The notes under the pieces: generated by a model
Told to the model about the DNA's origin: nothing
Database searches by the model: none
What the model saw: the letters and a program-made list of their open reading frames with translations, nothing else
From: Methanobacteriota archaeon
Lineage (GTDB): Archaea > Thermoplasmatota > Poseidoniia > MGIII > CG-Epi1
Reading direction: 5' to 3'
Assembly: GCA_029977605.1 (NCBI GenBank)
Contig: JAPOKN010000004.1
Span: 1-46,068, forward strand
DNA: 46,068 nt
Position numbers and translations under genes: made by a program
Shown: piece by piece, positions 5,022-30,156 of the stretch
How positions within the stretch are numbered: position 1 is the stretch's first letter
Layout: each line of letters starts with the position of its first letter

Positions 5022-8000
5022 ATGCAAGAAACCTATAAAATAGAAAAGAGAGATTGGGCTGCAACCCTAATGGCTGTTGTAGTCGTCGTGACTATGGTCA
5101 CCAGTACATTCGTACTGTTTGCACCAGAGGCATCGGCAAGAACCGGTAGCGATAGCTACGGTTATAGTTTTAAAGATTCAGCAGAAACTGATGGTCCAAC
5201 TTATGATTGGACAGATATTGTAAGTAGTGGAACAAAATTACTTGGCAGTACAACTGATGGAGCGCAAGGTCCATTTAACATCGGATTCGATTTTGAATTT
5301 TATGAAACCTCGTACGACAAGTTTTACAATGGAGGAGACAACGGTTACATTACATTCGGCGGAGCAGTTTCGAATGCTTGGACGCCTTATGCACTTCCAG
5401 CAACTCAACTTGGCCAAAATGCAATAGTTGCAGGATGGTTTGACGGTGGTTTCTGTACATCTAGAAATCCTAACTCTGGAGTTTATTATGAAACCGTAGG
5501 AGACGAAGGATCTAGACAATTAATTATACAAATGCAAGACCAAGTATACTGGAGTGCTAGAGATGGCAGTTCATATTGTAACAGTGGAAGTGCCTGGGCA
5601 ACTAACACAATTACTTGGCAAATTCTTTTGAACGAAGGTTCCAACAGTATTGTATTACAATATAAAGATGCAACCGGCGGTTCATTTTACGATAACGAAT
5701 ATCTGACATCAGGTATTCAAGGTGTTGTAGATGGTACTCAATATGGTCTACAATACAAATACAGGTCTACACCATCTTCGACTATAGCAGATGAAACTGC
5801 AGTCAAGTTTGTAGCACCACCTCCAAAGAGAAATGACTTGAAATTGTCAGCAACTACTATCCCACAGCCAATTTCATTGGCAGAAGATAACATTCTAGGT
5901 GCAACTGTAACCAACAACGGAGTTAACTGTGATACTGCAGGAGATTGTACTCCAGTACCAGAAACTGACGTTGATGTTACAGCTAGTATATTTTCAGTTA
6001 AAGAAACAGTCACAGAGTTTGACTTTGATGATAGATCAAATGCTGAAGGATGGACTCATTCCGGTATAGGCGGAGCTTCAAGTAAGTGGACTCAAGCACT
6101 GAATGATGGTGTTGGAAATTACAACTACGGTGAAGAAGGAACTGACGATGGTTCATGGTCTTCAGGACGTAAATCAACAACTTTCAGTGGATTGTTCAGC
6201 GATAATCAAAGAATTCACTACGATGGAACAGATATACTCGTAGCAGATGATGGATCTAACTCAGTTAAGAAAATTGATACTACAGATAATTCTGTAACAA
6301 CTATACTCGGACCTGACCTAACAAATTTACGAAATGTTCTTGATGTAACTTCTGATGAAGATTATTATTATACATTGGCAAGAGCATCCAGTACTTATTC
6401 CTCAACAACACGCATATGTAAATGGGATAGAGATGATGGTGCAATGGTAGGTTCTTGTTCAACTGCAGGAAAATATGGTACAGCATTAACTATCTATGAA
6501 GATGCAGACGAATTATTCCTTCTTCAAACATCATCAAGTAGTACATACCGTAAGATTGTAGGTTTCTCTACATCTAACTTAGCAACTAACGGAAAATCAA
6601 TTAGTTATGGTAGTGGAGTATCATCATACTACTATTCACAAGATATTGATGCAGATGAAAATACAGGAGATGTTTACATTTCATACAGAGAATATAATGG
6701 CCGAATGAGAGCTTACGAAAGAGCTACAGACGGTAGTTACTGTGCAAGTACCTCTTGTTACACTCAAGTTTACACTGGAGCCAGGTATCCAATCAGTATG
6801 GAAGTTCATGATAACTACGCATACATAATGGGATACTATTACTCATCATGGTATGGAGGTATCAAGAAAATGCCTACCAACTCTTTGAGTAGTATAACAA
6901 CAGTTATTTCTTCGTTCACACAAGGAACTTACAAAGGTTCTCTTGCAATAACTGATTCGGAAGATATCTACGTGTCTAGTAATTATGCATACAGTTACTA
7001 TAATTTCTTGAATTATCAAGATGCAGTATATTACTTTGAATCTGGAAGTACTTCAGGTACAGCTACTACTACAATTGGTCCAGCACCAACATATCTTGCA
7101 GCATTGAGCTCTCCAGCAATGGATCTTAGTGACGCAGTAGGATTAGAGATGTCTTTCAAAATCTCGTATAATTTCTACTTCAGATACGAAGGAGCTTACT
7201 TAGAAGTTTCAACAGATGGTGGAAATAACTGGGAATACATCAGTAATGATAAATTATCAGGTAAGAAATATTATGGAACTACCTACACAACATGGGGTAA
7301 CCCATTGGTAACTTCAAGAGATGCATGGACTTACTATGATACAGATGGTCGATATTCCTCTTATTCTAACACAGAAAATTGGAAAGAGACTACTGCAACA
7401 TTGGATGAATACACAGGATATGATGACGTACGTCTTCGTTTCGTTGTCGGATATAATACATATTCAATGTCATACTATAATGCATTCTTCAGAGTAGATG
7501 ATGTGTCTTTTACAGCACTAGAAGCAGATGAAACTTTTGCAACAGAAACCCAAACTATAGATTCTCTTGATTTCAAAGCATCAGAATCAGTAAGTTTCTT
7601 TGCAACAAATAAATTCAAGCCTAGCGCAGAAGGATTGCAGGTTGGCGATACAGTAGGAATATCTATTAATGTTCCAGGAAACGCTAATGATGAAGACAAA
7701 ACAAATCAACGTGTAGTTGTCTTTAGAGAAGTAAAATATGTTATATTTTCAGATGACTTCGAAGGTGGAGATAAAGGTTGGACTGATGGAAAAGTTCAAT
7801 ACGGAACTAGTGATTGGGCAGTCCGCTCAATTTCCGCATCAAGTGGTGCAAATTCGATGGACAGTGGTTACAGAAACAGTAATCCAGTTCCTTCTGATAC
7901 TTATGTTTCCACACCAGCATTAGATCTAGGTTTACCTGTTGAAGCTGAACTTCAAATGAAAATAGCATATTATGGATATTATACATATGATGGATACCAA

Positions 8001-11000
8001 GCACAAATATCAGATGATGGTGGAAGTACTTGGTCTATGATAACACCTATCGGCGGTTATCCAAATAATATCTACAATTACGCATACTACGGAAACCCAT
8101 TGCGCGGTCAACCAGCATACACATACTATGGATCTAGTACAGGTTTCACCAGTTCACCAGATTCAAATAAGTATATTGATGTAAAATTCAACCTTGATGC
8201 ATACACCGGTCAAGATGACATTATGTTTAGATGGGTTGCAGGATGGTCATCTATACCAACAGGATATGGATTCTATAATTCATTCTTGAGATTTGATGAC
8301 TTTGCAGTAACTGGTCTTGTGTACAACGATAACGTAGGAGTAAGTGCTTTAGAGCTTCCAGATCCAATTGGAATTGATGAGACTATTGCATTATCTACTA
8401 CAGTCATTAATGCAGGAATCAATAACCAAACAGCTGGAGCAGCTAAAGTAAGATTGCAATTAGGACCTATGGGTCTTGCAACTTACGATACTAGTGATGA
8501 CATAGAGTATACCTCTGTTTCAGAAGCTGCAGCAGCCGGTTGGAGTATGACAGATAAAGTATGTAATACTACATACGGAACATGTACTTCATGGGGAAGT
8601 CCAGCAGGTTTCACAATTGTCGCTGATGATGATACAACCGCATTAGGTCCAGAGGATGGAGAATTCGAGATGTACTACAGCGGTGGAAGTACAGAAACTA
8701 CTACACCTACCTTGAACTTCGCAGATGCTGAAAGTGATCTGAAATTAACCTTGAAACACAGATATAATTTCGATTATTATTCTGGCATGAGTACTGCATA
8801 CAATGGTGGACAAGTCTTGATTTCTACAGATGATGGAGACAATTGGGAATTATTCACACCTGAAGGCGGATATCCAGGAACAATGTACAATTATGCATAT
8901 TATGCAAATCCATTGTACAACCAAGCTGGATTCGTTCACTGTGGTGACTGTTCAGGAGTAAGTGGAACTGCTTCAGATAATGAAGACAAGTACATTGAAA
9001 CAGTATTCGACATGGCAGACTACGTTGGTGAAACAGAAGTCAAACTTAAGTTCCAAGTAGGAATGTATCGATATCAGTATCCAGGTGATGGAGAACACTG
9101 GTACATTGATTCATTAGCATTTACTGGAACTGGTATGGAGTCTGTAGCCTTTGAAGAAATTGTAGCAATTTCCGGAGCTGCAGGACCATTTGTTAGCGGT
9201 GAAAAATTCGAATATTCAAAAGATTACCACTTCCAAGTTCCAGGTGAATACAAAATCGAGTTCACTACTTGGATTGGATCAGATCCTTCAGCAGGAGATG
9301 ATTTTACAGGAGATAATACTGCAGCTGCAACACGTGAGACTATGTTTACCATAGCTGGAACAACAGCAGATGCAGATGCAACCTCTAACAAGAATGATGA
9401 ATTGAATAGAATGTATTACGAAGACGATTGGACATCAGCCAAGGATGGAGGTCCTCAGGACGGACATCAATGGAGAACAGATTCAACATCAAGTTCACCT
9501 GATTCACCAGTATGGTGGGTCGGACCTGATGCATATGGTTCTTCATACAATGGAGATGATGTAAGTCTAATGTCACCAGTAATTGATCTTTCACAAGCTA
9601 CCTCAGCAAAATTAGTGTTTGATCACGTTTTCTCATTCTACGCAAGTATTGGAAACTACAACTATTATTATGATGGTGGTAGAGTAGAAATTAGTACTAA
9701 TGGTGGAAGCACTTGGTCAGCCTTACCTGTCACATCAGGTCAAGGATATGGTGGATCTGTTTACAACTACGCATACTACGGTAACCCTCTAAGAGGTCAG
9801 CAAGCTTTCGTTGCATCTTCTTCAGCAGGTAATAGCATGGTAGAGACACAATGTAGTTTGAATGATTACACTGGCGAAGGTTTCGACAATGTAAGACTCA
9901 GATTCAGATACGGTGGAGCTTTCCCTAACTGGGGAAGTACTTGGAGCATTGACAATGTTGGTATCTACGGACTTGGTTTCGATTTGAAACAAACTAGTTC
10001 ATCTGTACCTTACACATTAGAAGTCGGTGAATCCAGTACAATAACTACCTCGTTTATTAACCAAGGTAAAGGAGACCTAGGTGCCGGTGGCGCAATGTCT
10101 GAAGCTTATGCATACGCATATGTTAACGACATGAGCGGTAACGAGCTATGGTCTTCATCCAGCTCATTGGGTAACTTAGACATGGCATATTATGATGAAA
10201 ACGGAAACACATTTGCTGGAGAATCTACTCCAACAATTAGTTTCGATTTCCCAGGTATGTCCAATGCAGGTATGTACACAGCAGGTGTAATGGTTGCAGA
10301 CTCTAATGGAGACATGTTGTCAGATTTATTCTCAGCAAACAATGATGCAAATCATATGTTGTTAGTAGGTCTTGGAGCTGACATGGGTTCACCAATGCTA
10401 GCAGGCGGATCTAACTGGGGCGCAGCTTCAGATGTTCCATCAGATGTTGGTGCAGGTGCTCTTGGAGTCGCTTGGGATGAAACAGGCGTTGCAACAGGAA
10501 CATTAGACATAGATATTGCAAGTCAAGGAACAGGATTTGTCCCTGAATCACCTACAGTTCAAATTGGAACAACTGTGAAATGGACTAATTCAGATACCAT
10601 GACTCATACTGTAACTGATAAAGCATCAGAGTTTGATTCATTCGATATCGCACCAGGTAGTTCCTTTGAATTAACGTTCAATGAAATAGGAGTGTTCACT
10701 TACTACTGTAAATACCATCCAATGATGGAAGGTACAATTACAGTAACATCTGACAATAGTGCAGATGAGCAAGCAAGAACAAACTACATCAATGTCTGGT
10801 CTGCAGAATCATACTTGTTCTTCTGGGCTAAGTATGACCTTTCTGATGATAGTGCAATATCTGTATATGCACAAAAGAAAGGCTCAGACATAGATGATGC
10901 AGGAACACTAGCTCTTTGGGGAGCTAATGGATTCAAGATAATGGATGGTTCAGATCATTCAGAAGTCGGAGATTCTTTAACTGGAGATAGCGGCTGGAAC

Positions 11001-12146
11001 CCATATTATATCTATTTAGATTCTAATAAATTGGGTTACAACAGTTTAGCATATGATCCAGAAGAAGATAATTCCTATGCATTTGTCTTCAGAGCACGTG
11101 GTGTAGAAGGTACAGCTGAGATTGGAAACGTACAAGTTGTGAGAACACAAGATACAGGTTTCTTCTTCGCTAAAGATAATCCAAATAAGCTAACTTATGA
11201 AATATTCCCAAGTTTAGCTGTAGAAATGGATTATTTCGCTAAGAACATAGGTACAGAAGACAATGAGTTCCAATTCACTCCTCACTTGGTTGCACAAGGT
11301 AAGGATTACATGGGAGCTGCATTCACAATAACAGTACAAGTGTTAGTTAATGGAGTAGAAGATAATGATGTATCTTCAACATCAGACGGTAATGGAACTT
11401 ACACATATGGAGTAGAAATGGCTCCAGATGATGAAGCATTAATTACTGTAAGATTCTTAGCTCCAGACTTTGACTCTGAGAAAGGTGAACCTGCAGGAAA
11501 CCGCAAATTCGATGTGAAAATGGATCCTACTGACACAGGTAGTGATGAAGAAATGAGAGAGCCAACTTCGGCAACCTTGTTCATTAAGCCATCACAATTT
11601 GTTCTAGGCGATATGTCATACGACAGAGCAGGAGTTCTTGAAGGCGATTCATTAGCAATCACTGTAAAAGCATGGAACGAAGGAAACTACGCTTCAGATG
11701 TCTTAATGGTGGTCTATGTAATTGATTCAACTGGAGATGCATACAACACACCAGACGGTGTAAAACGTATGACTAGAGTAGCTTCAACTACAGAACCAGT
11801 AATGGCACCAAAACCAGTTCTTGAGTCACAAGGAATCTATCAGACATGGTACCCAATAACAGCAGTTTGGGAAGAAGCATTCATACCAGGTGAAACAACT
11901 CAGGATTTCACAAATGTTGAGTTATACGCAATGATTAATCCAGATCCAGAGCAACAAGACGTTGACAATGGTTACAAGAAACAAGACGAATACTTGAACC
12001 AAAAAGACGACAATGATGCGTTCGGACAGATTGCAGTTGTTAAAGACAAATCATCTACTCCATCTTTCGCACTTGGAATAGTAGGTATGTCAGTAGCAGC
12101 ATTAATTGCAGCAGCTGGTGCTTCTCTAAGAAGAGAAGAAGAATAA
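5022..12146 (+). CDS. Giant secreted, C-terminally anchored surface protein (2374 aa) with beta-sandwich modules and a cupredoxin domain
   Basis: N-terminal signal (TLMAVVVVVTMVTSTFVLFAPEASA), repeated STDGGxxW..YYGNPLR..VRLRF..VDDVSF modules, plastocyanin-like domain, C-terminal TPSFALGIVGMSVAALIAAAGASLRREEE. Confidence 0.92.
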   Translation: MQETYKIEKRDWAATLMAVVVVVTMVTSTFVLFAPEASARTGSDSYGYSFKDSAETDGPTYDWTDIVSSGTKLLGSTTDGAQGPFNIGFDFEFYETSYDKFYNGGDNGYITFGGAVSNAWTPYALPATQLGQNAIVAGWFDGGFCTSRNPNSGVYYETVGDEGSRQLIIQMQDQVYWSARDGSSYCNSGSAWATNTITWQILLNEGSNSIVLQYKDATGGSFYDNEYLTSGIQGVVDGTQYGLQYKYRSTPSSTIADETAVKFVAPPPKRNDLKLSATTIPQPISLAEDNILGATVTNNGVNCDTAGDCTPVPETDVDVTASIFSVKETVTEFDFDDRSNAEGWTHSGIGGASSKWTQALNDGVGNYNYGEEGTDDGSWSSGRKSTTFSGLFSDNQRIHYDGTDILVADDGSNSVKKIDTTDNSVTTILGPDLTNLRNVLDVTSDEDYYYTLARASSTYSSTTRICKWDRDDGAMVGSCSTAGKYGTALTIYEDADELFLLQTSSSSTYRKIVGFSTSNLATNGKSISYGSGVSSYYYSQDIDADENTGDVYISYREYNGRMRAYERATDGSYCASTSCYTQVYTGARYPISMEVHDNYAYIMGYYYSSWYGGIKKMPTNSLSSITTVISSFTQGTYKGSLAITDSEDIYVSSNYAYSYYNFLNYQDAVYYFESGSTSGTATTTIGPAPTYLAALSSPAMDLSDAVGLEMSFKISYNFYFRYEGAYLEVSTDGGNNWEYISNDKLSGKKYYGTTYTTWGNPLVTSRDAWTYYDTDGRYSSYSNTENWKETTATLDEYTGYDDVRLRFVVGYNTYSMSYYNAFFRVDDVSFTALEADETFATETQTIDSLDFKASESVSFFATNKFKPSAEGLQVGDTVGISINVPGNANDEDKTNQRVVVFREVKYVIFSDDFEGGDKGWTDGKVQYGTSDWAVRSISASSGANSMDSGYRNSNPVPSDTYVSTPALDLGLPVEAELQMKIAYYGYYTYDGYQAQISDDGGSTWSMITPIGGYPNNIYNYAYYGNPLRGQPAYTYYGSSTGFTSSPDSNKYIDVKFNLDAYTGQDDIMFRWVAGWSSIPTGYGFYNSFLRFDDFAVTGLVYNDNVGVSALELPDPIGIDETIALSTTVINAGINNQTAGAAKVRLQLGPMGLATYDTSDDIEYTSVSEAAAAGWSMTDKVCNTTYGTCTSWGSPAGFTIVADDDTTALGPEDGEFEMYYSGGSTETTTPTLNFADAESDLKLTLKHRYNFDYYSGMSTAYNGGQVLISTDDGDNWELFTPEGGYPGTMYNYAYYANPLYNQAGFVHCGDCSGVSGTASDNEDKYIETVFDMADYVGETEVKLKFQVGMYRYQYPGDGEHWYIDSLAFTGTGMESVAFEEIVAISGAAGPFVSGEKFEYSKDYHFQVPGEYKIEFTTWIGSDPSAGDDFTGDNTAAATRETMFTIAGTTADADATSNKNDELNRMYYEDDWTSAKDGGPQDGHQWRTDSTSSSPDSPVWWVGPDAYGSSYNGDDVSLMSPVIDLSQATSAKLVFDHVFSFYASIGNYNYYYDGGRVEISTNGGSTWSALPVTSGQGYGGSVYNYAYYGNPLRGQQAFVASSSAGNSMVETQCSLNDYTGEGFDNVRLRFRYGGAFPNWGSTWSIDNVGIYGLGFDLKQTSSSVPYTLEVGESSTITTSFINQGKGDLGAGGAMSEAYAYAYVNDMSGNELWSSSSSLGNLDMAYYDENGNTFAGESTPTISFDFPGMSNAGMYTAGVMVADSNGDMLSDLFSANNDANHMLLVGLGADMGSPMLAGGSNWGAASDVPSDVGAGALGVAWDETGVATGTLDIDIASQGTGFVPESPTVQIGTTVKWTNSDTMTHTVTDKASEFDSFDIAPGSSFELTFNEIGVFTYYCKYHPMMEGTITVTSDNSADEQARTNYINVWSAESYLFFWAKYDLSDDSAISVYAQKKGSDIDDAGTLALWGANGFKIMDGSDHSEVGDSLTGDSGWNPYYIYLDSNKLGYNSLAYDPEEDNSYAFVFRARGVEGTAEIGNVQVVRTQDTGFFFAKDNPNKLTYEIFPSLAVEMDYFAKNIGTEDNEFQFTPHLVAQGKDYMGAAFTITVQVLVNGVEDNDVSSTSDGNGTYTYGVEMAPDDEALITVRFLAPDFDSEKGEPAGNRKFDVKMDPTDTGSDEEMREPTSATLFIKPSQFVLGDMSYDRAGVLEGDSLAITVKAWNEGNYASDVLMVVYVIDSTGDAYNTPDGVKRMTRVASTTEPVMAPKPVLESQGIYQTWYPITAVWEEAFIPGETTQDFTNVELYAMINPDPEQQDVDNGYKKQDEYLNQKDDNDAFGQIAVVKDKSSTPSFALGIVGMSVAALIAAAGASLRREEE
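7107..9984 (+). repeat. Four divergent repeats of a MAM/immune-inhibitor-A-like jelly-roll module within the giant ORF
   Basis: Approximate module bounds 7107-7524, 7909-8323, 8704-9135, 9574-9984. Each reads xxLDLsxaxxxxlxf..Y..GGxvxISTDGGxxW..Y(N/T)YAYYGNPL...Y.G..dv.lrF....w.iDdv. Confidence 0.75.
10497..10746 (+). other. Plastocyanin-like (type I blue copper, cupredoxin) domain inside the giant ORF
   Basis: GFVPESPTVQIGTTVKWTNSDTMTHTVTD...FNEIGVFTYYCKYHPMMEGTITV; ligands H1862 and C1896-x2-H-x2-M (C..H..M.G). Confidence 0.88.
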
Positions 12147-17261: not shown

Positions 17262-17756
17262 TCAGATAAGATTAAAATAGTCGAAAAGAAGTATGGCAAG
17301 CAAGGTTTGAAACCCTGCAGCAATGTCATCCAATAAAATTCCATGGCCTCCATGGAGTTTTTCTAAATTTCTTGCAGGCCATAATTTTGCTACATCAAAA
17401 ATACGGAATAAGATAAATGATAAAAACCAAATATGATTTTCCATTGAAAATTGAATAAGACTCAATGAAGCAATTATAATAAGATATCCAATAACTTCAT
17501 CTAGGACATATATTCCAGGATCGCCTCCATACTTTTTTTCAGCCCAAGGTGCTAATATTAAGCCAAAGTAGTACATTATAGGAATTAATGTTAGTAAAGC
17601 ATATCCTGCATTGCTTTCAAGATAATTAGTTAGTAAGAATCCTAGTACAACACCGCCTAAAGTTCCAAATGTCCCAGGAGCAATAGGAGCCCTTCCTAAA
17701 AAGAAGAAAGACAGATAAATTTCTTTGAATAACTCTTTATTCATTTTTAGCCTCAA
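17262..17756 (-). CDS. pgpA: Phosphatidylglycerophosphatase A-like protein
   Basis: GRAPIAPGTFGTLGGVV, DPGIYVLDEVIGYLI, FRIFDVAKLWPARNLEKLHGGHGILLDDIAAG. Confidence 0.92.
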   Translation of the reverse strand: MRLKMNKELFKEIYLSFFFLGRAPIAPGTFGTLGGVVLGFLLTNYLESNAGYALLTLIPIMYYFGLILAPWAEKKYGGDPGIYVLDEVIGYLIIIASLSLIQFSMENHIWFLSFILFRIFDVAKLWPARNLEKLHGGHGILLDDIAAGFQTLLAILLFDYFNLI

Positions 17757-18366
17757 CCCAAAAATGGTTCATTCTTTGTATGGCAGTTAGATTTCCTAAT
17801 ATTGCCAGCACGGCAACTACGATGGTAACGATAGTCTCGACATCTCCCATTAATTCACCAATCAACAATCCCATTCCTAAAATAAACCACCTTTCGGGCC
17901 TTTCAATTAATCCAATACCTTCTTGTGAAACACCTAGTCTTTCGGCAGCTGCGCGACAGTATGATGTTTGAAATGCTCCAATCATTGCAGCCATTGCCCA
18001 CATTTGTCCAGAAATAAACTCAAGGCTTTCAATAGGCAAAGGATTTACCCAATCGCAAAGAATTAGGGCACTAAAAGCGATACAATCAGCATATCTATCT
18101 AAAGTCGCATCTAAGTATCCGCCTCTTACAGAACTGGTTTTTGTCGCTCTTGCAACTAATCCATCTGCACCGTCGAAAAGAGATGCAATCATCCCTACCA
18201 AAAAAGCGTAATAAATATTTTGATCGTATAATAGCAATGCAGCATACATAGTCAAAGCAACTCCAGAAATTGTAATATGATTCGGTTTGATGCCGAATTT
18301 ACCAAGTCCTTTGGCCAGCGGATCAAACAGCTTTCCAGCAGCAGTTTTCAGAGTTTTACTAAGCAT
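17737..18366 (-). CDS. CDP-alcohol phosphatidyltransferase (archaetidylinositol-phosphate synthase-like)
   Basis: DGADGLVARATKTSSVRGGYLDATLDRYAD CAPT motif. Track ORF begins at 18411; MLSKTLKTAAGKLFDP at 18366 is the likely start. Overlaps pgpA by 20 nt. Confidence 0.88.
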   Translation of the reverse strand: MLSKTLKTAAGKLFDPLAKGLGKFGIKPNHITISGVALTMYAALLLYDQNIYYAFLVGMIASLFDGADGLVARATKTSSVRGGYLDATLDRYADCIAFSALILCDWVNPLPIESLEFISGQMWAMAAMIGAFQTSYCRAAAERLGVSQEGIGLIERPERWFILGMGLLIGELMGDVETIVTIVVAVLAILGNLTAIQRMNHFWVEAKNE

Positions 18367-18425
18367 GGAAGTAAAATGACATGGGAGAGGCTCTTTTAGT
18401 CCCTTGTCCAATGAGCAAATAGCTT

Positions 18426-19388: not shown

Positions 19389-19450
19389 CTGAATAGTCAG
19401 CTTTATATCATATGCTCGAGGTTTACAAATTCCTAGAGGCGTATTTAGTT

Positions 19451-20341
19451 ATGAGTCAAAAGAAATCTAGACAACAAAAAAAGCCAAAATCAGAAATTAA
19501 ATTGGCTGAAGAACGTTTTCAAAGTTGTGTAGTGAAAAGAAATAATTTCAATGACGAAGCCCGCTCCCTCCGGGATGAGCGAAATGCTTTACATGATCAA
19601 AGAGGAAAGATTATGGAAGAAATTATGAAGCATAGGGAAGAAATGAAATCAAATACTTCCGCTAAAGCTAAACATCAGAAGGTAAGAAATACTGCACAGG
19701 AAAAAGCTAAACAACTAATTTCAATAAAGCAACAGAAGCGAGGAAACAAAAAAGGTGGAAAGTCTCTTACCGATACAGTTCAGGCATTACATTCAGAAAT
19801 TCTTAATTTAGAAAGAAGAAGAGAAACTACGGAAATGCCAATTTCTAAAGAGAGAGAAGTAATGGAAAAGTTAGGAATATTGAGGAGAAGTTTGGGAGAG
19901 CAAGAGAGCGAACTTGCAACTCAAGAGCATTTAAATTTAGAAGTATCTGAATTAGATGCAGAAATAGATTCAGAATTTTCTAAGGCTAATGATGAGCATA
20001 GTGAAGTTATAGTTCTGGCCAAGCTCAATAAAAAAATATACAAAAAGGTTAGTAACCTTATGAAAGAAGCTTCCCATTTATCTACAGAAGCAGATAAAAA
20101 GCATAAAGAATTTGTAAATGTTCGTAAGAAAGCTGACAACCAACATTCTAAGGCTATGGAAATGCTAGAAGCATTAAAATTGCACAGAAAAACGGCTAAT
20201 GAAGAAAGACAAGCCAGATGGAAAGTAGTTAAAGACCATAGAAAGAACATAAAGGATGAGTTGTATAATCCTAAAAAATTAGAATCTGCAGCAGATGATG
20301 CCTTACAGCAATTAATGTCTGGCGGTAAAATAAACCTTTAA
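19451..20341 (+). CDS. Long coiled-coil protein (archaeal, Lys/Glu-rich)
   Basis: Heptad-rich, charged, no signal peptide; MSQKKSRQQKKPKSE at 19451 is a plausible start (track ORF opens at 19412). Stop overlaps the next start by 1 nt (TAATG). Confidence 0.75.
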   Translation: MSQKKSRQQKKPKSEIKLAEERFQSCVVKRNNFNDEARSLRDERNALHDQRGKIMEEIMKHREEMKSNTSAKAKHQKVRNTAQEKAKQLISIKQQKRGNKKGGKSLTDTVQALHSEILNLERRRETTEMPISKEREVMEKLGILRRSLGEQESELATQEHLNLEVSELDAEIDSEFSKANDEHSEVIVLAKLNKKIYKKVSNLMKEASHLSTEADKKHKEFVNVRKKADNQHSKAMEMLEALKLHRKTANEERQARWKVVKDHRKNIKDELYNPKKLESAADDALQQLMSGGKINL

Positions 20342-21075
20342 TGGACGCTATAATCCTCGCAGGTGGTTTTGCTAAGAGAATGTGGCCATTAACCAAGAAT
20401 AAACCTAAGCAACTTCTTAATCTTGCGGGGAAACCAATGCTTGATTATGTTTTTGATTCTTTAGATAATCTTGATTTTGAAAGAATTATTGTTTCAGTAA
20501 ATAGTTTTTTTGCACCTCAATTTCAAGAGTATTTATTGTCTAATTCTAAAGATAAGAAAATTGAATTATTTATTGAAGAAAGCACTAATGAAAACGAAAA
20601 ATTAGGCGCTTTAGGCGCTTTAAATCTTTTATTCAAAAAGAAAAAATTGGTAGGTCCAGTTTTCATAGCTGGAGGCGATAATTTGTCAGATTTTGATTTA
20701 ATAAAAATGATAGACCTGTACGAAAAATCGAATTCGGATGTTATTGGTTTATTTGATGTTGAAAATATAGAATTAGCAAAATTATATGGTATAGCTAACC
20801 TAGAGGGGAACAGGATCATTGATTTTGTTGAAAAACCTTCCTCTCCTCCATCGACGTTGGCAGCAACTGCTTATTGGCTACTTTCAGAATCAGGGATAAA
20901 TAATTTTTTTACGTACATAGAAGGCGGAGGAGATAGAGATGCAATGGGTAATTTTTTAACTTGGAACGTTAAACGCAATCCAGTATTGTCAGTATCATTT
21001 AAGGGAAGTTGGTATGATATTGGTGGTTTAGAATCTTATTCAGAGGCGCAGAATTGGTTAGAAAAAAGACCTTAG
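20341..21075 (+). CDS. Sugar-1-phosphate-type nucleotidyltransferase
   Basis: MDAIILAGGFAKRMWPLTKNKPKQLLNLAGKPMLDYV (LAGGxxxRxxPLTxxxPK) and GSWYDIGGLESY. Confidence 0.9.
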   Translation: MDAIILAGGFAKRMWPLTKNKPKQLLNLAGKPMLDYVFDSLDNLDFERIIVSVNSFFAPQFQEYLLSNSKDKKIELFIEESTNENEKLGALGALNLLFKKKKLVGPVFIAGGDNLSDFDLIKMIDLYEKSNSDVIGLFDVENIELAKLYGIANLEGNRIIDFVEKPSSPPSTLAATAYWLLSESGINNFFTYIEGGGDRDAMGNFLTWNVKRNPVLSVSFKGSWYDIGGLESYSEAQNWLEKRP

Positions 21076-21103: not shown

Positions 21104-22762
21104 GTGATGACTAGTGATTTATCTATACTTGCAGAAGTTCTTGTCATCAGTTCCTTAATTATTTTATCATTAGGATATTTTTTTTCAAGCAAGAACCATA
21201 TTATTTTTGGTAAGAAGTTTCCTGTAAAAATAGGTCACAATCTGAATATTATAGGTTGGTTACTTCTAGGTTTTTTTTGGTGGATACAAGTAGAGCATTA
21301 CATTTTAATAAATGATCCAGCAAATGGTTTTTTCTGTGCATTAGCGATGCCGTTTTTCGGTTACCTGGCAATACATGAATATCTAAGTATACGTTGGAAT
21401 GCTAACTATGAACCACTCAGATGGCTAGCTGCGATGACAGTTGTTGCTGGAGGAATTTATTTTTTCGTTGAGCGAGTCCCTATTCTCTCAGGTTGGTTAA
21501 TTCAAATAGTTGCTGAACAATCAATATGGATATTAAATTCATTTGATATTCCAACATCTTTAGGTAATTTAGATTACGGTGATGGATCAAAATATTACAG
21601 GCCAGCTTCCAATCATGAAGAAGTTCAAATCGCCATTGAAGGTGATGAATGGCGTAATCCTGATTCAGTATCACTTACTATTGTATTAGCATGTACGGCT
21701 TTACAAAGTATGATAATATTTGTGGGCGGAGTTGTTTGTACTAAGGCTCCTGCAGATAGAAGATTTTATGCATTTCTTGCTACAGTCCCTGCAATTTATC
21801 TTTTAAATTTAATAAGAAATGCAGTTGTTATTTGGTTAACATATGAGCACATATGGGGGGATGAAACTTTTTTCTATGCTCACAGCGTTTTAGGGAAAGT
21901 TGGGAGTTTAATTGCCCTGGTATTTCTAGCAATAGCAGTATTTCACTTTTTGCCAGAAATGCAGGATTCCATATTAGGTGTAATTGATTTACCTCTTAGA
22001 AAGGCTCCGGATGGCTTACGAGGACTTCCTTTTGCTAAAGGTATGCCTTCCCAAGTAGCATATCTCTTAGTTACTGGCCTAGTATTATTTCCATTTGGTT
22101 TCTTTTCAAAATCAGTTGAAGAGCAAGGTTTTGATTCAAATCTTCCTCTTGAAAGCATGTATACCTTATCAATAATCTTGTTATTAGTTTCTTTCTTTTT
22201 GTTGTATTTTTACCGAGACCCTGAAAGAAAAATTGAAGCTGGAATTGTTAGTCCTGCTGATGGTCTTGTACAAAGAGCAGAAATAAAGAGTGGAATGGTC
22301 CGCCTATCTATCTTTATGAATGTACATAATGTTCATGTAAACAGGTCTCCTTTTGATGGGAAAATTTTGTCTATTAAACATAAATCTGGAGGTTACCTTC
22401 CAGCTTTTCACAAGGATTCAGATAGGAACGAACGTCTGATGACTAAGATAGAAACCTCAATTGGTGTAATGAAGGTAATTCAGATAGCTGGAGTTTTAGT
22501 TAGACGAATTGTTAGTTACGTTAAACCAGATACAGAAGTTACTAAGGGGGAAAGAATAGGCTTAATCCATTTCGGTTCTAGAGTTGATCTATCATTTGAA
22601 TCTGCAGGAATAGATATTTTAGTTAAAAAGGGAGACAGAGTATTGGCCGGACAACAATTAGCAGAATATACACCAATGTCTTCATTATCAGTTACTGAAA
22701 AGTTATTTGAGGCACCTAAGCGTATTCTGTCAAAATTACAGGCTTCCCAAAGTGATGAGTGA
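21104..22762 (+). CDS. Archaeosortase fused to phosphatidylserine decarboxylase proenzyme
   Basis: N-terminal polytopic half has the archaeosortase triad: LACTALQSM (C197), YLLNLIRNAVV (R238), FFYAHSVLGK (H260). C-terminal half has short-type PSD motifs: YRDPER, VSPADG, FMNVHNVHVNRSP, GERIGLIHFGSRVDL (Gly-Ser processing site G491-S492). Confidence 0.93.
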   Translation: MMTSDLSILAEVLVISSLIILSLGYFFSSKNHIIFGKKFPVKIGHNLNIIGWLLLGFFWWIQVEHYILINDPANGFFCALAMPFFGYLAIHEYLSIRWNANYEPLRWLAAMTVVAGGIYFFVERVPILSGWLIQIVAEQSIWILNSFDIPTSLGNLDYGDGSKYYRPASNHEEVQIAIEGDEWRNPDSVSLTIVLACTALQSMIIFVGGVVCTKAPADRRFYAFLATVPAIYLLNLIRNAVVIWLTYEHIWGDETFFYAHSVLGKVGSLIALVFLAIAVFHFLPEMQDSILGVIDLPLRKAPDGLRGLPFAKGMPSQVAYLLVTGLVLFPFGFFSKSVEEQGFDSNLPLESMYTLSIILLLVSFFLLYFYRDPERKIEAGIVSPADGLVQRAEIKSGMVRLSIFMNVHNVHVNRSPFDGKILSIKHKSGGYLPAFHKDSDRNERLMTKIETSIGVMKVIQIAGVLVRRIVSYVKPDTEVTKGERIGLIHFGSRVDLSFESAGIDILVKKGDRVLAGQQLAEYTPMSSLSVTEKLFEAPKRILSKLQASQSDE

Positions 22763-22765
22763 ATT

Positions 22766-23557
22766 ATGATTAATTTAAAAAAAGTATTTAGGCCATTAAC
22801 TTTGATTTCTTACGCAGATATGGCAACTTTACTAAGTGCTACTTTGGGTTTTTTAGCAATAACATACATGATTGATGGCAACGAGAAAAGTTACATTGTA
22901 GCTATGTTAATATTGCCATTTTGTGCGATTATTGACGGAATGGATGGTGCATTGGCTAGAAAATTTGGTACTAAACATCATTATGGAAAATACCTTGATT
23001 CAATTTCAGATTCAATATGTTTTGGAATCGCTCCGTCCATTTTGGTTTATTCCTTGTATTATAATTTAGATAAAGGCCCAGCAATAGATATTTTTGATGA
23101 TAACTTTGAGGTAAACTTAAGGTATAATATAGATAATATAATTGCAATTTCTTCAGCCTTATTAATCGCAATTTTAAGTATAATCAGATTAGCTAATTTT
23201 ACTATAGGTGATCAGGGTAGTAACGAATATTTTTCAGGTCTACCTTCCCCTGGGTTAACTATGTTTATAGTTGTAATTTCAATAAAGTATTCACAGATTA
23301 ATGATTATAATAATATACTAATTCCCTTATCAATTGGTTTGGTTTCACTACTAACTGCATCAACTATACCCTATGCTAAAGCTAGAAAACAATTTAAGTT
23401 TCCTATACTTTTTGGATTAATTGTACTGATAATAACAATAGTTCTTAGATATTTAGAACAAGCGTTTTGGCTCACAATATGGCCTTTAGCCTTACTTTTG
23501 TACTTAGTCTATTTTTTGCTTTTGCCGTTACTAATTTTAAACAGATATTTTGATTAG
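22766..23557 (+). CDS. pssA: CDP-diacylglycerol/archaeol-serine O-phosphatidyltransferase (phosphatidylserine synthase-like)
   Basis: DGMDGALARKFGTKHHYGKYLDSISDSICFGIAPS; CAPT motif with the PssA-like LDSxxDxxxFGxAP extension; 3 nt after the archaeosortase-PSD ORF. Confidence 0.88.
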   Translation: MINLKKVFRPLTLISYADMATLLSATLGFLAITYMIDGNEKSYIVAMLILPFCAIIDGMDGALARKFGTKHHYGKYLDSISDSICFGIAPSILVYSLYYNLDKGPAIDIFDDNFEVNLRYNIDNIIAISSALLIAILSIIRLANFTIGDQGSNEYFSGLPSPGLTMFIVVISIKYSQINDYNNILIPLSIGLVSLLTASTIPYAKARKQFKFPILFGLIVLIITIVLRYLEQAFWLTIWPLALLLYLVYFLLLPLLILNRYFD

Positions 23558-26500
23558 TGTTTTCTTCTGTAAACAATTAGTGCTAGGAGCCCTACAACAG
23601 ATAAGAATGAAGGTCCAGGAAGTAAAGAGTCCTCGCCTTCAGATGCAGTTTCTTCAGATATAATATCTCCTTCGACTGTAACTGTTAGAGTAACTTGATC
23701 TAATATCTCGAAGACATACCCTCCACTTGAAGATTCACTTGCAGATAAAATATTCAGTGTGTATGTATAAGTTCCAGGCAAAACTTCCCTTGCAATAACT
23801 GCTAAAGCCCCCCAATCTAGCGTTTCACCGGCCTGAACTTTTAATGGATATAATTTAGTATCGGATGGAGAAATAGCTAATCTCCATTCTTTACTATTTT
23901 CATCAAAATAGAGATCAGTATCTTTAGTTCCATCTGGCATAATCAATTCAAGCGCCACATCTACATCCACAGTTCCTTTATTATCAATAATGAAGCCAGT
24001 AGATGCAGTTTGTATTTTAGAAGCTTCAATAGTGATTTCAAAATTTGCTGAATCTAGACATAGATTACTCAAATCAGCGAAGCAAAGAGAAACATCTTGA
24101 ATTTCTTCAATCGGAGTTTGTACGACTATGTTTGATATAGATTTTGCTAATTCATTACCATTATCATCAAAAATTAATATTTCTAATCGATATGTTGCAT
24201 CAGAAGTTCCTAATGGAACATTAATGGTTGCGCTTACAACTTTAGCTTCATCAACATCTAAATCAAATGTTGCAGGTTCTAACATAACCCAACTTCCAGC
24301 TTGACTTTCAGCAACTACTTCTATGGCCTGTTTTCCATTTCCGTCACTTAAAATATTGAATACGATGGTATCAGATTCACCGGGTGCGATTGTTCTTAAG
24401 CCAGATCCTTCTCTTCTTAGAGTTACACCGGTTTCTAATTCTTCTACTGAAACTCTGATTGTTTTATCATCTTTTGCAGTTTCGTCACCTCTTGATGTGG
24501 CTTCAACTTCAATATACACATTTCCATCATCTTGGTCATCAGGAATTGAAATTATTCCATTGACAGTAGCTTCACCATCTGCTCCAATAGTAATTCCGTT
24601 TTCTTCAAATTGGACCCATTCATTTTCATCACCTAAAACTTCAAGATCAAATGTATCGGTTTCATCTCCGTTATTGTATATTGTTACACTAAATTCTACA
24701 TCCTGTCCAGCTACAGATTCAGTGTTTGTTGGACTTACAGCTATTTCGACTTCATAGTTTGTAGGATTATCTGTCACATCTATAGTTAAATCTAAAGTTT
24801 CAGTAACGTCTCCGGCAGTCAGAATAATAGTTAGATCATACAAGTCATATTCAGCATCATCTGGTATTGTTATTTGTAGTTCTATATCTTTACTTTCATT
24901 ACTTTTCATTTCCATTTGATTTGTCATAGATCCCCAATCTTCAGCAGATCCAACCATATCAAGATAGAAGGTATCAGTTCCAGAAGCTCCGTTTTTGATA
25001 ACAATATTAAATTCTAATTTTGCACCAGGTTCACCTTCTTTATCTTGATTAAAAGTAGATATCTCAGGTAGATGAACCATTTCAACATCTAAATCAATTT
25101 CTTTATCATCATTTCTATGATTCTCGTCCTCTTTTGTAGTCTCTACAATAATTATGTATTCACCGGGATTATTACTTTCCCATTCCCATTCTAATGTTTC
25201 TTCTTCACCAGATTCTAATGGTCCTGTTATCTGTTGATTGCTAGTCCAGACTTCGTTCTCTTCAGAATCCAGAATAGTTGCTTTAACATCAATAGCGGCC
25301 TGAGTATCAGATCCATAATTTTTTATTATACTTGAAAACGAAATAGTTGAATTTTCTTTTGCGTCGCTCTCCAATTTGAGTACTTTAACTCCGACATCAT
25401 CTGCAGCTGCAGAGGCCCGTAACCAGTCGAGAGCCCTTCCTACCATGTCCTCACGATCGTTTGAAGTGTTAACCTTACCAAATGTAAAAGGAGAAACAAT
25501 TAATCTGTAATCACCATCATAATGTAAAGACATATTGAAAACCTGTGCAGCATCATCCCAGTTTTCCATTCCATCTTCCATATCGTCAGATAGATGACTT
25601 GTAGTTCCTCCGTTAGAAGTTAATTCAACATCATCAAAATACCAACCCTCATAGGCATCAATAACCCCATCTGCTCCAAATCTCCATTTTAATTTTACAT
25701 CTTCGCCTGAGAAATTTGTTAGATCAAATGTAGCTTGTACCCACCCTCCAGATTGTCCGTAGTAACCAGGTTCTCCATCTAAACCGCTAACTGACTGAGC
25801 AGGATATCCTCCATTAGGCTGTATAACTTCCCACGTTTCTCCTCCATCAGTTGTAATTTGTACGTTTCCTCCATCATAAGCATAGCTTTCACTCTCAGTA
25901 TCATAGTAGTGTTGGAATGATAGCTGGGGGCTGTTTCCAAGTGTGAATTCATCTGAAGTATAAACAGAGTAATCCCATCCATTACCATACTCTCCATCGC
26001 CTTTAGATTCATCCCCTATCCACATTGAATGAGTAGGGCTATTTGCTTTTCGATTTGGATCGCTAACAGTATCTACAATATGCCACCAATTACTTCTATC
26101 AGTATAAAATGCACCAATGGCTTCATCGTTAGGCCTTATCCAATCAGCATAGTCAGAGAAATATATGCTTGTATCTCCCATATTATATTCAGCGTCGCCA
26201 AATATCTCATCTCCGTCTACTCCAATTAGCGGATCGGGCGTTCCAACATTGTTTCTAATGTAATCAATTTTAAAATAATCATATTCAAAATCGCCGGCTT
26301 CTCTTGGCCCGTCACTTTCGTTTAATGCAGTTAAAAATTGTTGTCCCATAATCCAAAGGCTTCCGCCTTGATCCAAATATTCACTAATACATTCTTGCCA
26401 GTTAGTAGTATTTCTTTGATTATGATCGCCTTGAGTCCATATAACAACATCATAGTTACTCATCAAATCTAAAGTAGGATATGGCCCTAATTCACCGAAT

Positions 26501-29500
26501 GATCCCAGTTCACTGTCATAAGGCATGGTGTAAACATCGTAGCCTCTGCTTTCACCATCAGTAAAGTATTCCTGTAAAGCGAACTTTAGTCTATTATCTA
26601 TCTTATCTACATCGTAGTAGTTGTTATATCCATTATTTTTACCGAAGTTTGCATCAACTAATAGAACTTTATCTCCACCTTCTTGTGAATAATAGAATGG
26701 AGTTGCGGAGATGTCACTACTGTCTTCAGTTTCAGGATCATCTCTACTTGTTACAGTTACTGTAAAGGAATGTTCATTTCCAGTAGGTTCCAATGTAGGA
26801 GCAATTACAACTACAGTAAAGTTTTGACTTGAGCCTGAACTTAGATAAATAGAGCTTACATGAGAAATAATTTCCCAATCATCCTCTTGTTCAGAATCTA
26901 AACTTATGTCGTAATATCCACTATTTTCTCCAGTATTTGTGGCAGTAAAGTTGAATGCTACAGATTCACCAGATAGTACATCTTTTGCTTGTTCTTGTAC
27001 CGCTAAAGCAACATTATAGCCACTTTCGGCTATATCTATATTTTCTTCTTTTGGATTATTACCAGCTCTTTCATCTCCAGTTAATAATGTTTCGACTCTT
27101 ATTGTGTAGGTACCTTCAGGTCCACCTTCCCAGGTCCACTCTAATGTAGAATTATCTTTTGATTCAAGTGAATCAATAGTTTGAGTTTCGTTGTAAACTT
27201 CAGTACCATCGTCTCTCGTTACTGTGCCTCTTATATCAAAATCATCTTGATCATTTGTTCCAAAATTGTAGATTTCAGAAGTAAAAGTTACAGCTCTTCC
27301 TGGTTTAGCTGTGCTAGGCGAATCTAATTCTTTAGTTCCAACATCGTTAGGTATCGGTGGAAGACTATAAACTGCAAAATTATCAACATACAATCCTTCA
27401 AGTTGAGTGAAGGTATTAGATTCAAATCTAAGTCTGAATGAAACATCGTCCTCATACTCACTTACATCACTTTCAAAATAGAGCCACCCATTCTCGTCAG
27501 CTCCATCGTATTCGCTAGAGTAATCTCCATCATCGCCGGGTAAAGTTTCTAAAAGTTCCCACTCGCCGGATTGATTTATTTCTAAGTTGACAAAATCATT
27601 TGGACCGTCAATTGCAAACCATACCATTGCAGAAACATATTTTTCAGCACCATCTCCTATGTCAAACGTAGGTGATTCTAAAGAATCATTTAGTGAAGCA
27701 CTGTAAGTTTCAGTACTTGGATTTCCTAAATACCATGAATAATCTCCAGAATAGGATTTGTTGCTATAGTAATTCCACTCACTTTCAACAATGTCGGCCA
27801 TCCAATCTCCGTCGCCATCTTCAAAATCATCTTCAAAATGAGTTTCAGTTCCACTGTTAACTTCAATATTATCAATATACCATCCTTCATAGGCTTCTAC
27901 ACTTGCATCTGTTCCGAACCTAAATTTGAATCTTACATCTTGATTAGTATAGTTTGCAAGACTAAAGGATGCAGTTTCCCAATCAGCAGTATCTCCTTCC
28001 CCAGAAGTTCCAGTGTATCCTGGTTCATTATCCAATCCAACTACGGCATCATCAGGGTATCCGCCGTCAGGATTGATGACTTCCCAAGTTTCTCCGTCGT
28101 CAGTTGTAATTTGAACATTACCTCCATCCCAACTAAATTCAGTACTATACCAAATATCAACAGACATCTGTGGGTTAGTTTGACCAAGTGAAATCTCTTC
28201 ACTTGTATAAACAGAAAAATCCCAATTATTGTCATATTCACCATCTCCCTTAGATTCATCTCCAACCCACATCGCATGAGTTGGACTAGATGCTTCTCTG
28301 TTACTATCTTCGTCAGTATCGATTAAATGCCATGGATTGCTTAATGATTTGTAATTAGTCCACCCATTAACTCCGCTTTCCATGTCATCACTAAATTCAA
28401 CATCGACACTTCTCATCATTGAATCAATTATATCATTTTCTGGAACTTCATCATCATCATCTATGACTTTAGCTTCAAACCAAAAAGTTCCGTAATCATC
28501 AGTTTCCCATTCCCATGTAAGTGTTAAATCTTCACCTGGAGCTAAATCTTCAACATCTTTATTTCCTAAATTTTCAACAACGTTTCCTGCTCCATCATAG
28601 ATTTTACCACTAATTTCAGAATTCATAGTAACATCTCCACTATTTGTAACAATTACACTCATTTCTCTTTCTTCATCTTTCTCAGCGATCATTGGAGTAA
28701 CACGAGCATCTTTTACTTCTAAATCATACGTAACATAGGTATTAACTTTGATAATCTTTTCATTATTTTCCTCTTTTTCATCATTTGAAATTGTGGCCTT
28801 ACTTTTTATCTGATAAACATAGTCTTCATCATCTGGAGTATCCCATTCAAATTCAACAAAAGCACCAGTGCCTGAATCTAGTGAAATAGTTTCAGATTCA
28901 GTAAACGTGTACGAGCTATTCAAACATGTAATTTCTAACGAAACTTGAATACTATCTTGGTCTTCAGTACCTCTGTTTCTTACTGTAACATTTACAATGT
29001 TTTCAACGTTAGGTTCAACAGTCTCTTCATCTTTAGGCGTATTAAATCTGCTTAAACTTACATCATTTTCTAGTTGTTCAACAAGGTATTCAACAACGTT
29101 TTCCATAAATTCGTCCCTATCATCACTACTTGTAATAGAACTAAAATCAATAGTCATGAATACCAATTTGAATTCATCTTCAGTTCTTATGGTTGAAATA
29201 TTATAGTCTCCATTTGAACTTAAGACTTTTTCAAATCCGCTTCTAGGATTAATATCGTCTGCAAAATCTGAGCTTATCGCATCAGCATCGTATTCTATAC
29301 CATCAGAAATAGGATCATCGTCTTCACCATATACTACAGCAGGTGTTGCCCTGTCATTATCGGCATAACTAACGCCAAGATAATCGTGTTCAAAGTCACC
29401 AGCGCTACGATCACCGTCTGATGTATCAAAATCATACAAAATATCCATTCCTATAACCCACATAGCTCCTCCATCCTCTAGATATTCTGCGACATTTGAT

Positions 29501-30156
29501 TTGTCATTATCAGTAAAAGTTACATCAGTGTCTCCACTTTGGTAGTCAGTTCCACATACCCAAATAATCATTTGATACTCTGATAAAACATCTATTCCAG
29601 GAGCATCAGCACTACTATTGACTCTTACTATATCATATGCAATAGGATTAGTAAGGTTGTCAAGGGCATTGGCATAGTATGAGTCAGTTTCAGTCCTCGA
29701 ACCACCATTATTTCCGCTGTTATCATCGTCTAAAAGCAATATGGGCGGATATGAAACGGCAATATCTTCGGTTTCCTCATTATTATCCTCGTCAGATTCA
29801 GTAATTTGTTCTTCTTCATCAACAATTACTTTAATTTTGTGAGATCCTCCCACTGCAGTCCATTCAGTTTCAGCGTCTGCAGTATTTCCACCGGGAATAG
29901 TTATTGTTTCTTTAGCAATAAAGTTTCCATCATAGTAAAAGCTAACATTTGTAGTTACAGTAATTAGTCCACTAGTCCCCCCATCATTTGCGACCTCTGC
30001 GGTAATAGTTATCTCATCACCTCCTGTAGGTGAATCATCACTAAAACTTATCTCATTTATTGATAAGTCAGGATCATTTTCATCAGCTAATGTGTTCATA
30101 GCTGAAAGTGGTAGCATCAGCATGGCTAGCAAGAAAGCAGTTATTTTACGAGACAT
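23554..30156 (-). CDS. Giant secreted, C-terminally anchored surface protein (2200 aa) with CARDB-like, GATase/ThuA-like and MAM-like modules
   Basis: Signal peptide MSRKITAFLLAMLMLPLSAMNTLAD; repeated CARDB/APHP-like domains; C-terminal DSLLPGPSFLSVVGLLALIVYRRKH. Confidence 0.92.
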   Translation of the reverse strand: MSRKITAFLLAMLMLPLSAMNTLADENDPDLSINEISFSDDSPTGGDEITITAEVANDGGTSGLITVTTNVSFYYDGNFIAKETITIPGGNTADAETEWTAVGGSHKIKVIVDEEEQITESDEDNNEETEDIAVSYPPILLLDDDNSGNNGGSRTETDSYYANALDNLTNPIAYDIVRVNSSADAPGIDVLSEYQMIIWVCGTDYQSGDTDVTFTDNDKSNVAEYLEDGGAMWVIGMDILYDFDTSDGDRSAGDFEHDYLGVSYADNDRATPAVVYGEDDDPISDGIEYDADAISSDFADDINPRSGFEKVLSSNGDYNISTIRTEDEFKLVFMTIDFSSITSSDDRDEFMENVVEYLVEQLENDVSLSRFNTPKDEETVEPNVENIVNVTVRNRGTEDQDSIQVSLEITCLNSSYTFTESETISLDSGTGAFVEFEWDTPDDEDYVYQIKSKATISNDEKEENNEKIIKVNTYVTYDLEVKDARVTPMIAEKDEEREMSVIVTNSGDVTMNSEISGKIYDGAGNVVENLGNKDVEDLAPGEDLTLTWEWETDDYGTFWFEAKVIDDDDEVPENDIIDSMMRSVDVEFSDDMESGVNGWTNYKSLSNPWHLIDTDEDSNREASSPTHAMWVGDESKGDGEYDNNWDFSVYTSEEISLGQTNPQMSVDIWYSTEFSWDGGNVQITTDDGETWEVINPDGGYPDDAVVGLDNEPGYTGTSGEGDTADWETASFSLANYTNQDVRFKFRFGTDASVEAYEGWYIDNIEVNSGTETHFEDDFEDGDGDWMADIVESEWNYYSNKSYSGDYSWYLGNPSTETYSASLNDSLESPTFDIGDGAEKYVSAMVWFAIDGPNDFVNLEINQSGEWELLETLPGDDGDYSSEYDGADENGWLYFESDVSEYEDDVSFRLRFESNTFTQLEGLYVDNFAVYSLPPIPNDVGTKELDSPSTAKPGRAVTFTSEIYNFGTNDQDDFDIRGTVTRDDGTEVYNETQTIDSLESKDNSTLEWTWEGGPEGTYTIRVETLLTGDERAGNNPKEENIDIAESGYNVALAVQEQAKDVLSGESVAFNFTATNTGENSGYYDISLDSEQEDDWEIISHVSSIYLSSGSSQNFTVVVIAPTLEPTGNEHSFTVTVTSRDDPETEDSSDISATPFYYSQEGGDKVLLVDANFGKNNGYNNYYDVDKIDNRLKFALQEYFTDGESRGYDVYTMPYDSELGSFGELGPYPTLDLMSNYDVVIWTQGDHNQRNTTNWQECISEYLDQGGSLWIMGQQFLTALNESDGPREAGDFEYDYFKIDYIRNNVGTPDPLIGVDGDEIFGDAEYNMGDTSIYFSDYADWIRPNDEAIGAFYTDRSNWWHIVDTVSDPNRKANSPTHSMWIGDESKGDGEYGNGWDYSVYTSDEFTLGNSPQLSFQHYYDTESESYAYDGGNVQITTDGGETWEVIQPNGGYPAQSVSGLDGEPGYYGQSGGWVQATFDLTNFSGEDVKLKWRFGADGVIDAYEGWYFDDVELTSNGGTTSHLSDDMEDGMENWDDAAQVFNMSLHYDGDYRLIVSPFTFGKVNTSNDREDMVGRALDWLRASAAADDVGVKVLKLESDAKENSTISFSSIIKNYGSDTQAAIDVKATILDSEENEVWTSNQQITGPLESGEEETLEWEWESNNPGEYIIIVETTKEDENHRNDDKEIDLDVEMVHLPEISTFNQDKEGEPGAKLEFNIVIKNGASGTDTFYLDMVGSAEDWGSMTNQMEMKSNESKDIELQITIPDDAEYDLYDLTIILTAGDVTETLDLTIDVTDNPTNYEVEIAVSPTNTESVAGQDVEFSVTIYNNGDETDTFDLEVLGDENEWVQFEENGITIGADGEATVNGIISIPDDQDDGNVYIEVEATSRGDETAKDDKTIRVSVEELETGVTLRREGSGLRTIAPGESDTIVFNILSDGNGKQAIEVVAESQAGSWVMLEPATFDLDVDEAKVVSATINVPLGTSDATYRLEILIFDDNGNELAKSISNIVVQTPIEEIQDVSLCFADLSNLCLDSANFEITIEASKIQTASTGFIIDNKGTVDVDVALELIMPDGTKDTDLYFDENSKEWRLAISPSDTKLYPLKVQAGETLDWGALAVIAREVLPGTYTYTLNILSASESSSGGYVFEILDQVTLTVTVEGDIISEETASEGEDSLLPGPSFLSVVGLLALIVYRRKH

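Follow-up and report, generated by a model that had tools for sequence, protein, structure and literature searches.

Marine Group III (MGIII) comprises uncultured archaea of the sea. The stretch of MGIII DNA analysed here, 46,068 nucleotides in length and referred to as the window, contains an open reading frame (21104-22762 on the forward strand) whose 552 codons are translated without an internal stop and whose product joins archaeosortase A (ArtA) to an archaetidylserine/phosphatidylserine decarboxylase (PSD). In profile searches, residues 44-294 matched TIGR04125 (archaeosortase A) with 141.4 bits against a cut-off of 75 (E 3.5e-41), residues 365-520 matched PF02666 with 134 bits against a cut-off of 22, and the C-terminal half matched NF003685 (short-type PSD) with 193.6 bits against a cut-off of 183. 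With all three models over their cut-offs, the sequence-only reading of this DNA as encoding an archaeosortase and a complete short-type PSD in one polypeptide is borne out, and the fusion in the window is confirmed as genuine. With NF038088 (protein sorting system archaetidylserine decarboxylase, anchor_synt_D) the fused protein scored 176.7 bits, under the cut-off of 240; the decarboxylases of that model have their context in common with the window fusion, but the window protein scores outside the model. The fusion is the sole match to PF02666 in the window genome (88% complete) and, among the matches listed, the sole match to TIGR04125. The coordinates of the features discussed are collected in Table 1.

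Table 1. Genes, domains and residues of the artA-psd locus in the window
Feature	Coordinates	Strand	Basis or remark
pgpA-like phosphatase, same headgroup neighbourhood	17262..17756	-	profile match, synteny
Archaetidylinositol-phosphate synthase-like gene, headgroup neighbourhood	17737..18411	-	profile match, synteny
DUF7121 gene, upstream of fusion	19412-20341		
Sugar-phosphate-type nucleotidyltransferase, upstream gene of block	20341..21075	+	profile matches, synteny
Fused gene, archaeosortase A + archaetidylserine/phosphatidylserine decarboxylase	21104..22762	+	552 aa, GTG start
ArtA half, residues 1-300	21104..22003	+	TIGR04125 match and eight predicted membrane helices in model
ArtA nucleophile Cys197	21692..21694	+	identical in 34/34 ArtA halves
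ArtA Arg238	21815..21817	+	identical in 34/34 ArtA halves
ArtA His260, candidate third active-site residue	21881..21883	+	identical in 34/34 ArtA halves
Junction and hydrophobic hairpin, residues 312-369	22037..22210	+	FAKG start, helices 316-333 and 349-369
PSD catalytic domain, residues 365-520	22196..22663	+	PF02666
PSD Asp386 (SPADG), self-cleavage triad	22259..22261	+	alignment column without any other residue
PSD His411 (E. coli H147 equivalent), self-cleavage triad	22334..22336	+	36/36 rows
Predicted self-cleavage site Gly491-Ser492 (FGSR)	22574..22579	+	36/36 rows; mechanism from Psd literature
pssA-like archaetidylserine synthase (CDP-OH_P_transf)	22766..23557	+	3 nt downstream of fusion
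Surface protein, 2200 aa, tripartite C-terminal tail LLPGPSFLSVVGLLALIVYRRKH	23554..30156	-	convergent with pssA; position conserved

The gene that follows the fusion exceeds the cut-off of PF01066 (CDP-OH_P_transf); with NF038087 (archaetidylserine synthase) it reached 93.9 bits against a cut-off of 240, though this is the best match of the protein. A pssA gene directly follows the fusion in every longer MGIII locus checked. Where loci are long enough, the MGIII block consists of pgpA and the archaetidylinositol-phosphate synthase gene on one strand, and of purC, the DUF7121 gene, the nucleotidyltransferase gene, artA-psd and pssA on the other, after which comes an opposed gene for a very large surface protein; the arrangement with pssA and then a tailed surface protein after the fusion is shared by MGIII loci from two genera. 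The DUF7121 and nucleotidyltransferase genes lie upstream of the fusion in every MGIII locus long enough to show them.

The 2200-residue surface protein encoded opposite pssA is a likely substrate of ArtA. About 20 large proteins in the window genome end in PGF/PGP-like or similar tails, hydrophobic and followed by Arg/Lys, and at least five of these tails contain PGF; the tails were listed by composition, a procedure that also takes in ordinary C-terminal membrane helices and carries no estimate of false positives. When the window genome was searched with TIGR04126 (PGF-CTERM), all matches were under the cut-off. Elsewhere in the window (5022-12146), a 2374-residue protein, whose C-terminal tail is hydrophobic with ASLRREEE as its last residues, is possibly another surface protein.

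The catalytic residues named in the sequence-only reading (C197, R238, H260, SPADG and G491-S492) all lie at the positions it gave, SPADG being residues 383-387 of the fused protein. In H. volcanii ArtA the active-site residues are Cys173, Arg214 and Arg253 (PMC9263693). The Cys-Arg spacing of 41 residues in that enzyme is equal to that in the window ArtA half, but the third residue is Arg253 in H. volcanii, whereas the candidate in the window protein is His260, 22 residues C-terminal of Arg238. Conservation was surveyed in an alignment of 55 proteins, with 34 ArtA rows and up to 36 PSD rows. Loss of catalytic residues among close relatives had been named in advance as a ground for refuting the proposal. 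The catalytic residues are conserved with one exception: the Cys, Arg and His of ArtA and the PSD residues D386, H411, G491 and S492 are kept, but H408 varies. This residue, the His that opens the HxxH of PSD and the equivalent of H144 in E. coli Psd, is present in the window protein and is variable even within the genus; many aligned fused relatives have Q, F, L or W in its place. In E. coli Psd, H144 is near the substrate headgroup and is important for decarboxylation (PMC9385802). By analogy with Psd, Ser492 is predicted to become the pyruvoyl group after cleavage.

Structure prediction, which had been proposed as a check, agrees with the two-part architecture. An AlphaFold2 model of the fused protein, made on the 55-protein alignment (mean pLDDT 92.1, pTM 0.87), consists of a helical half with the eight long helices of ArtA, a two-helix hairpin (316-333 and 349-369) and, after it, an all-beta domain. 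In the PDB, the model found its best fold matches in PSD-family PsiD structures, aligned to the C-terminal half (top match 8x4q, E 1.1e-3), and this search gave no convincing match for the ArtA half; by sequence, neither the fused protein nor the family profile matched any PDB entry. By loop-charge count, acidic loops precede Cys197 (146-191), surround His260 (246-261) and form the turn of the hairpin (336-348), basic or mixed charge is seen in loops 213-224 and 283-314, and the N-terminal loop 24-42 is an exception to the charge rule. In the model, five membrane helices lie between the Cys197 end and the PSD domain. From the loop charges and these five helices, the ArtA residues are predicted to face outward and the PSD domain to lie on the cytoplasmic side of the membrane, a topology that represents helix count and loop charge and not measured geometry. 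The published location of the ArtA active site agrees with the outward-facing prediction (PMC9263693).

Two details of the original proposal need revision in this light. It supposed that the fusion channels its lipid product to the transpeptidase; because the two active sites are predicted to face opposite sides of the membrane, the product lipid would have to cross the bilayer before reaching ArtA, and the fusion would give no direct transfer; no flippase was found. The evidence favours ArtA and PSD being held in one place but gives no support to simple channelling. The proposal also had self-cleavage release the alpha chain, which conflicts with what is known of E. coli Psd, in which the pyruvoyl strand belongs to the main sheet (PMC9385802); by analogy, the 61-residue pyruvoyl alpha chain should stay bound in the PSD fold.

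The fused reading frame is uninterrupted over its whole length in a further 13 species of the window genus and in four species of a second genus, making 18 MGIII species with the window included; the 17 further proteins, all of the same family, are 52-98% identical to that of the window. Another MGIII genome (G003) has the frame open until a run of N, and further MGIII copies are interrupted by contig ends. A frameshift error joining two genes had been recognised from the start as a danger to the interpretation. Such an artefact, or one due to an assembly error or an overlooked stop codon, now has next to no likelihood: nothing within the MGIII family favours it, the fusion of another Thermoplasmatota family (f13, discussed below) being the one case known from a lone MAG, and the identical architecture recurs intact in so many independent MGIII assemblies that a sequencing or assembly join is excluded for MGIII. 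The copies in the 17 further species also rule out a fusion peculiar to the window genome. Two sequences were noted in passing. A second PSD-half fragment, 87% identical and situated at a contig edge (G002:C2:49642-50091, L047), occurs in the same MAG as the first; a mixed strain is its probable source. The window locus also has a 97% identical counterpart on a contig (L033, PCCQ01000086.1) whose MAG bears the title Candidatus Neomarinimicrobiota bacterium, probably through a binning or labelling error.

The MGIII fusion is derived from neighbouring artA and psd genes: among the matches listed, 62 of 70 Thermoplasmatota genomes outside the window's class that had both matches carry artA immediately before psd in the same orientation. 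The reading frames of artA and psd share 4 nt in many of these genomes; in Methanolobus, Methanococcoides and Methanoperedens they likewise form an adjacent pair, 0-11 nt apart or overlapping. The FAKG sequence at the junction resembles the M(L/F)AKG start of many unfused PSDs, as would be expected from loss of the stop and start between neighbouring genes. A survey for similar fusions, another of the checks proposed, found them in two other Thermoplasmatota families. In f13 there is a protein of 418 residues that lacks the hydrophobic hairpin (L098:1586-2842, one MAG), and in f19 there are two, of 447 and 444 residues, that retain it (L099:1597-2940 and L100:1307-2641). These proteins have the domain order of the MGIII fusion in one ORF, but their junctions differ and they are placed apart from it on trees. 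Outside Thermoplasmatota, the search for fusions covered the database sequence matches to the window protein. On the ArtA trees, no fewer than two changes between the fused and unfused states are required; the PSD tree displays three, but its well-supported branches force no more than one. Judged from the ArtA tree, the fusion happened at least twice.

Some relatives keep ArtA without its partner. In a genome of the third genus of the window family (G017), artA stands alone (L102 4003-4911) and encodes 302 residues that end at the fusion linker; the block is otherwise conserved, but it lacks psd, pssA and the gene for the giant surface protein, and a dihydrofolate reductase-like ORF comes after artA. 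When PssA and PSD were sought elsewhere in this 79%-complete genome, no good match was found. In the sister family f3, of the same class, 46 of the 50 ArtA-positive genomes listed have ArtA without PSD and four have PSD alongside it; those tested are mostly without a convincing PssA. Representative f3 ArtA proteins (from genomes exemplified by L025, L027, L030, L031 and L103) retain the Cys, Arg and His residues. PSD and PssA thus tend to go missing together, and ArtA can outlive them. A general need of ArtA for PSD is contradicted by most of the f3 genomes listed and by G017; because these keep ArtA without PSD and PssA, the lipid supply is not universally required. Such relatives provide natural counter-examples: their acceptor must differ or the lipid must be made in another way.

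The fused protein is probably a bifunctional ArtA/archaetidylserine decarboxylase that serves to anchor C-terminally tagged surface proteins to a lipid. PssA, the product of the adjoining gene, would make archaetidylserine. The PSD half, going by its sequence and the Psd literature, would generate its pyruvoyl group by self-cleavage at Gly491-Ser492, with the beta chain remaining covalently joined to ArtA and the 61-residue alpha chain held in the fold, and would then convert archaetidylserine to archaetidylethanolamine at the cytoplasmic face, although its true substrate could be another aminolipid. After the lipid had crossed to the outer face, the ArtA half would cut the PGF-type C-terminal tails of exported surface proteins by means of Cys197 and pass the new C-terminus to the lipid acceptor, probably to the amine of ethanolamine. 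The fusion would hold the two enzymes one-to-one in the same place. A more elaborate version, in which one polypeptide makes the acceptor lipid inside and then passes it outward to the sortase via the shared bundle of membrane helices, is quite improbable; if true, a single machine would both synthesise and transfer the lipid for protein anchoring.

The function might be more modest if fusion mainly equalises the amounts of two co-expressed enzymes, with PSD making an ordinary membrane lipid and ArtA using another acceptor. That another acceptor is workable follows from G017 and most of the f3 genomes listed, and the opposite faces predicted for the two active sites are in keeping with separate tasks; we nevertheless consider this explanation unlikely, given that artA-psd adjacency is very persistent, that fusion took place more than once, and that deletion of pssA or pssD in Haloferax volcanii blocks cleavage of ArtA substrates (PMC7157517). 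On a different suggestion, the PSD half decarboxylates little or not at all and serves ArtA chiefly in a structural or regulatory capacity. In its favour, the authors of that study left protein-protein interaction open as the cause of the dependence, and Q, F, L or W stands at the H144-equivalent position of many fused proteins. Against it, the Ser, the Asp and one His of the self-cleavage triad do not vary, pssA stays beside the fusion, and pssA and psd are missing together in G017, all of which makes a PSD half without catalytic purpose very improbable.

The bifunctional anchoring enzyme also accords with the Haloferax ArtA-PssA-PssD pathway (PMC7157517), to which the sequence-only reading had linked the locus, a link strengthened by conservation of the fusion and by the adjoining pssA. 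In H. volcanii the three proteins co-localise at midcell (PMC7157517), and archaetidylethanolamine has been proposed as the nucleophile in a model that its authors term speculative (PMC7157517). NCBIfam assigns its models for PSD and PSS by name to 'protein sorting systems', so a functional link between ArtA and PSD was already known. No paper describing an ArtA-PSD fusion was found in the open-access literature; subscription journals were mostly outside this search and an earlier mention is possible. The repeated fusion, on top of persistent adjacency, offers independent comparative support for PSD as a direct partner in ArtA-dependent anchoring. It ties physically two steps that were earlier joined by genetics and gene order alone, and it contributes a fixed ratio and a shared location of ArtA and PSD. 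A dual enzyme encoded by a single gene is also a compact test object for the anchor lipid of archaeosortases.

The PSD half has the pyruvoyl decarboxylase fold and the Gly-Ser self-cleavage site of E. coli Psd and of PsiD, but these lack the sortase domain of the window fusion, and E. coli Psd associates with the membrane peripherally, whereas the window PSD domain is tethered by membrane helices. The artA-psd pairs of Methanolobus, Methanococcoides and Methanoperedens are two ORFs where the window has one; unfused homologues of the methanogen and Methanoperedens type are about 30% identical to the window protein in ArtA and about 50% in PSD. In the artA-pssA-pssD clusters of Methanosarcina (PMC7157517), the genes lie side by side on one strand as separate ORFs. 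The H. volcanii pathway (HVO_0915, HVO_1143 and HVO_0146; PMC7157517) has its three enzyme families in common with the window locus, but there the three genes are unlinked and their products are separate proteins, whereas in the window ArtA and PssD form one chain and pssA follows 3 nt downstream.
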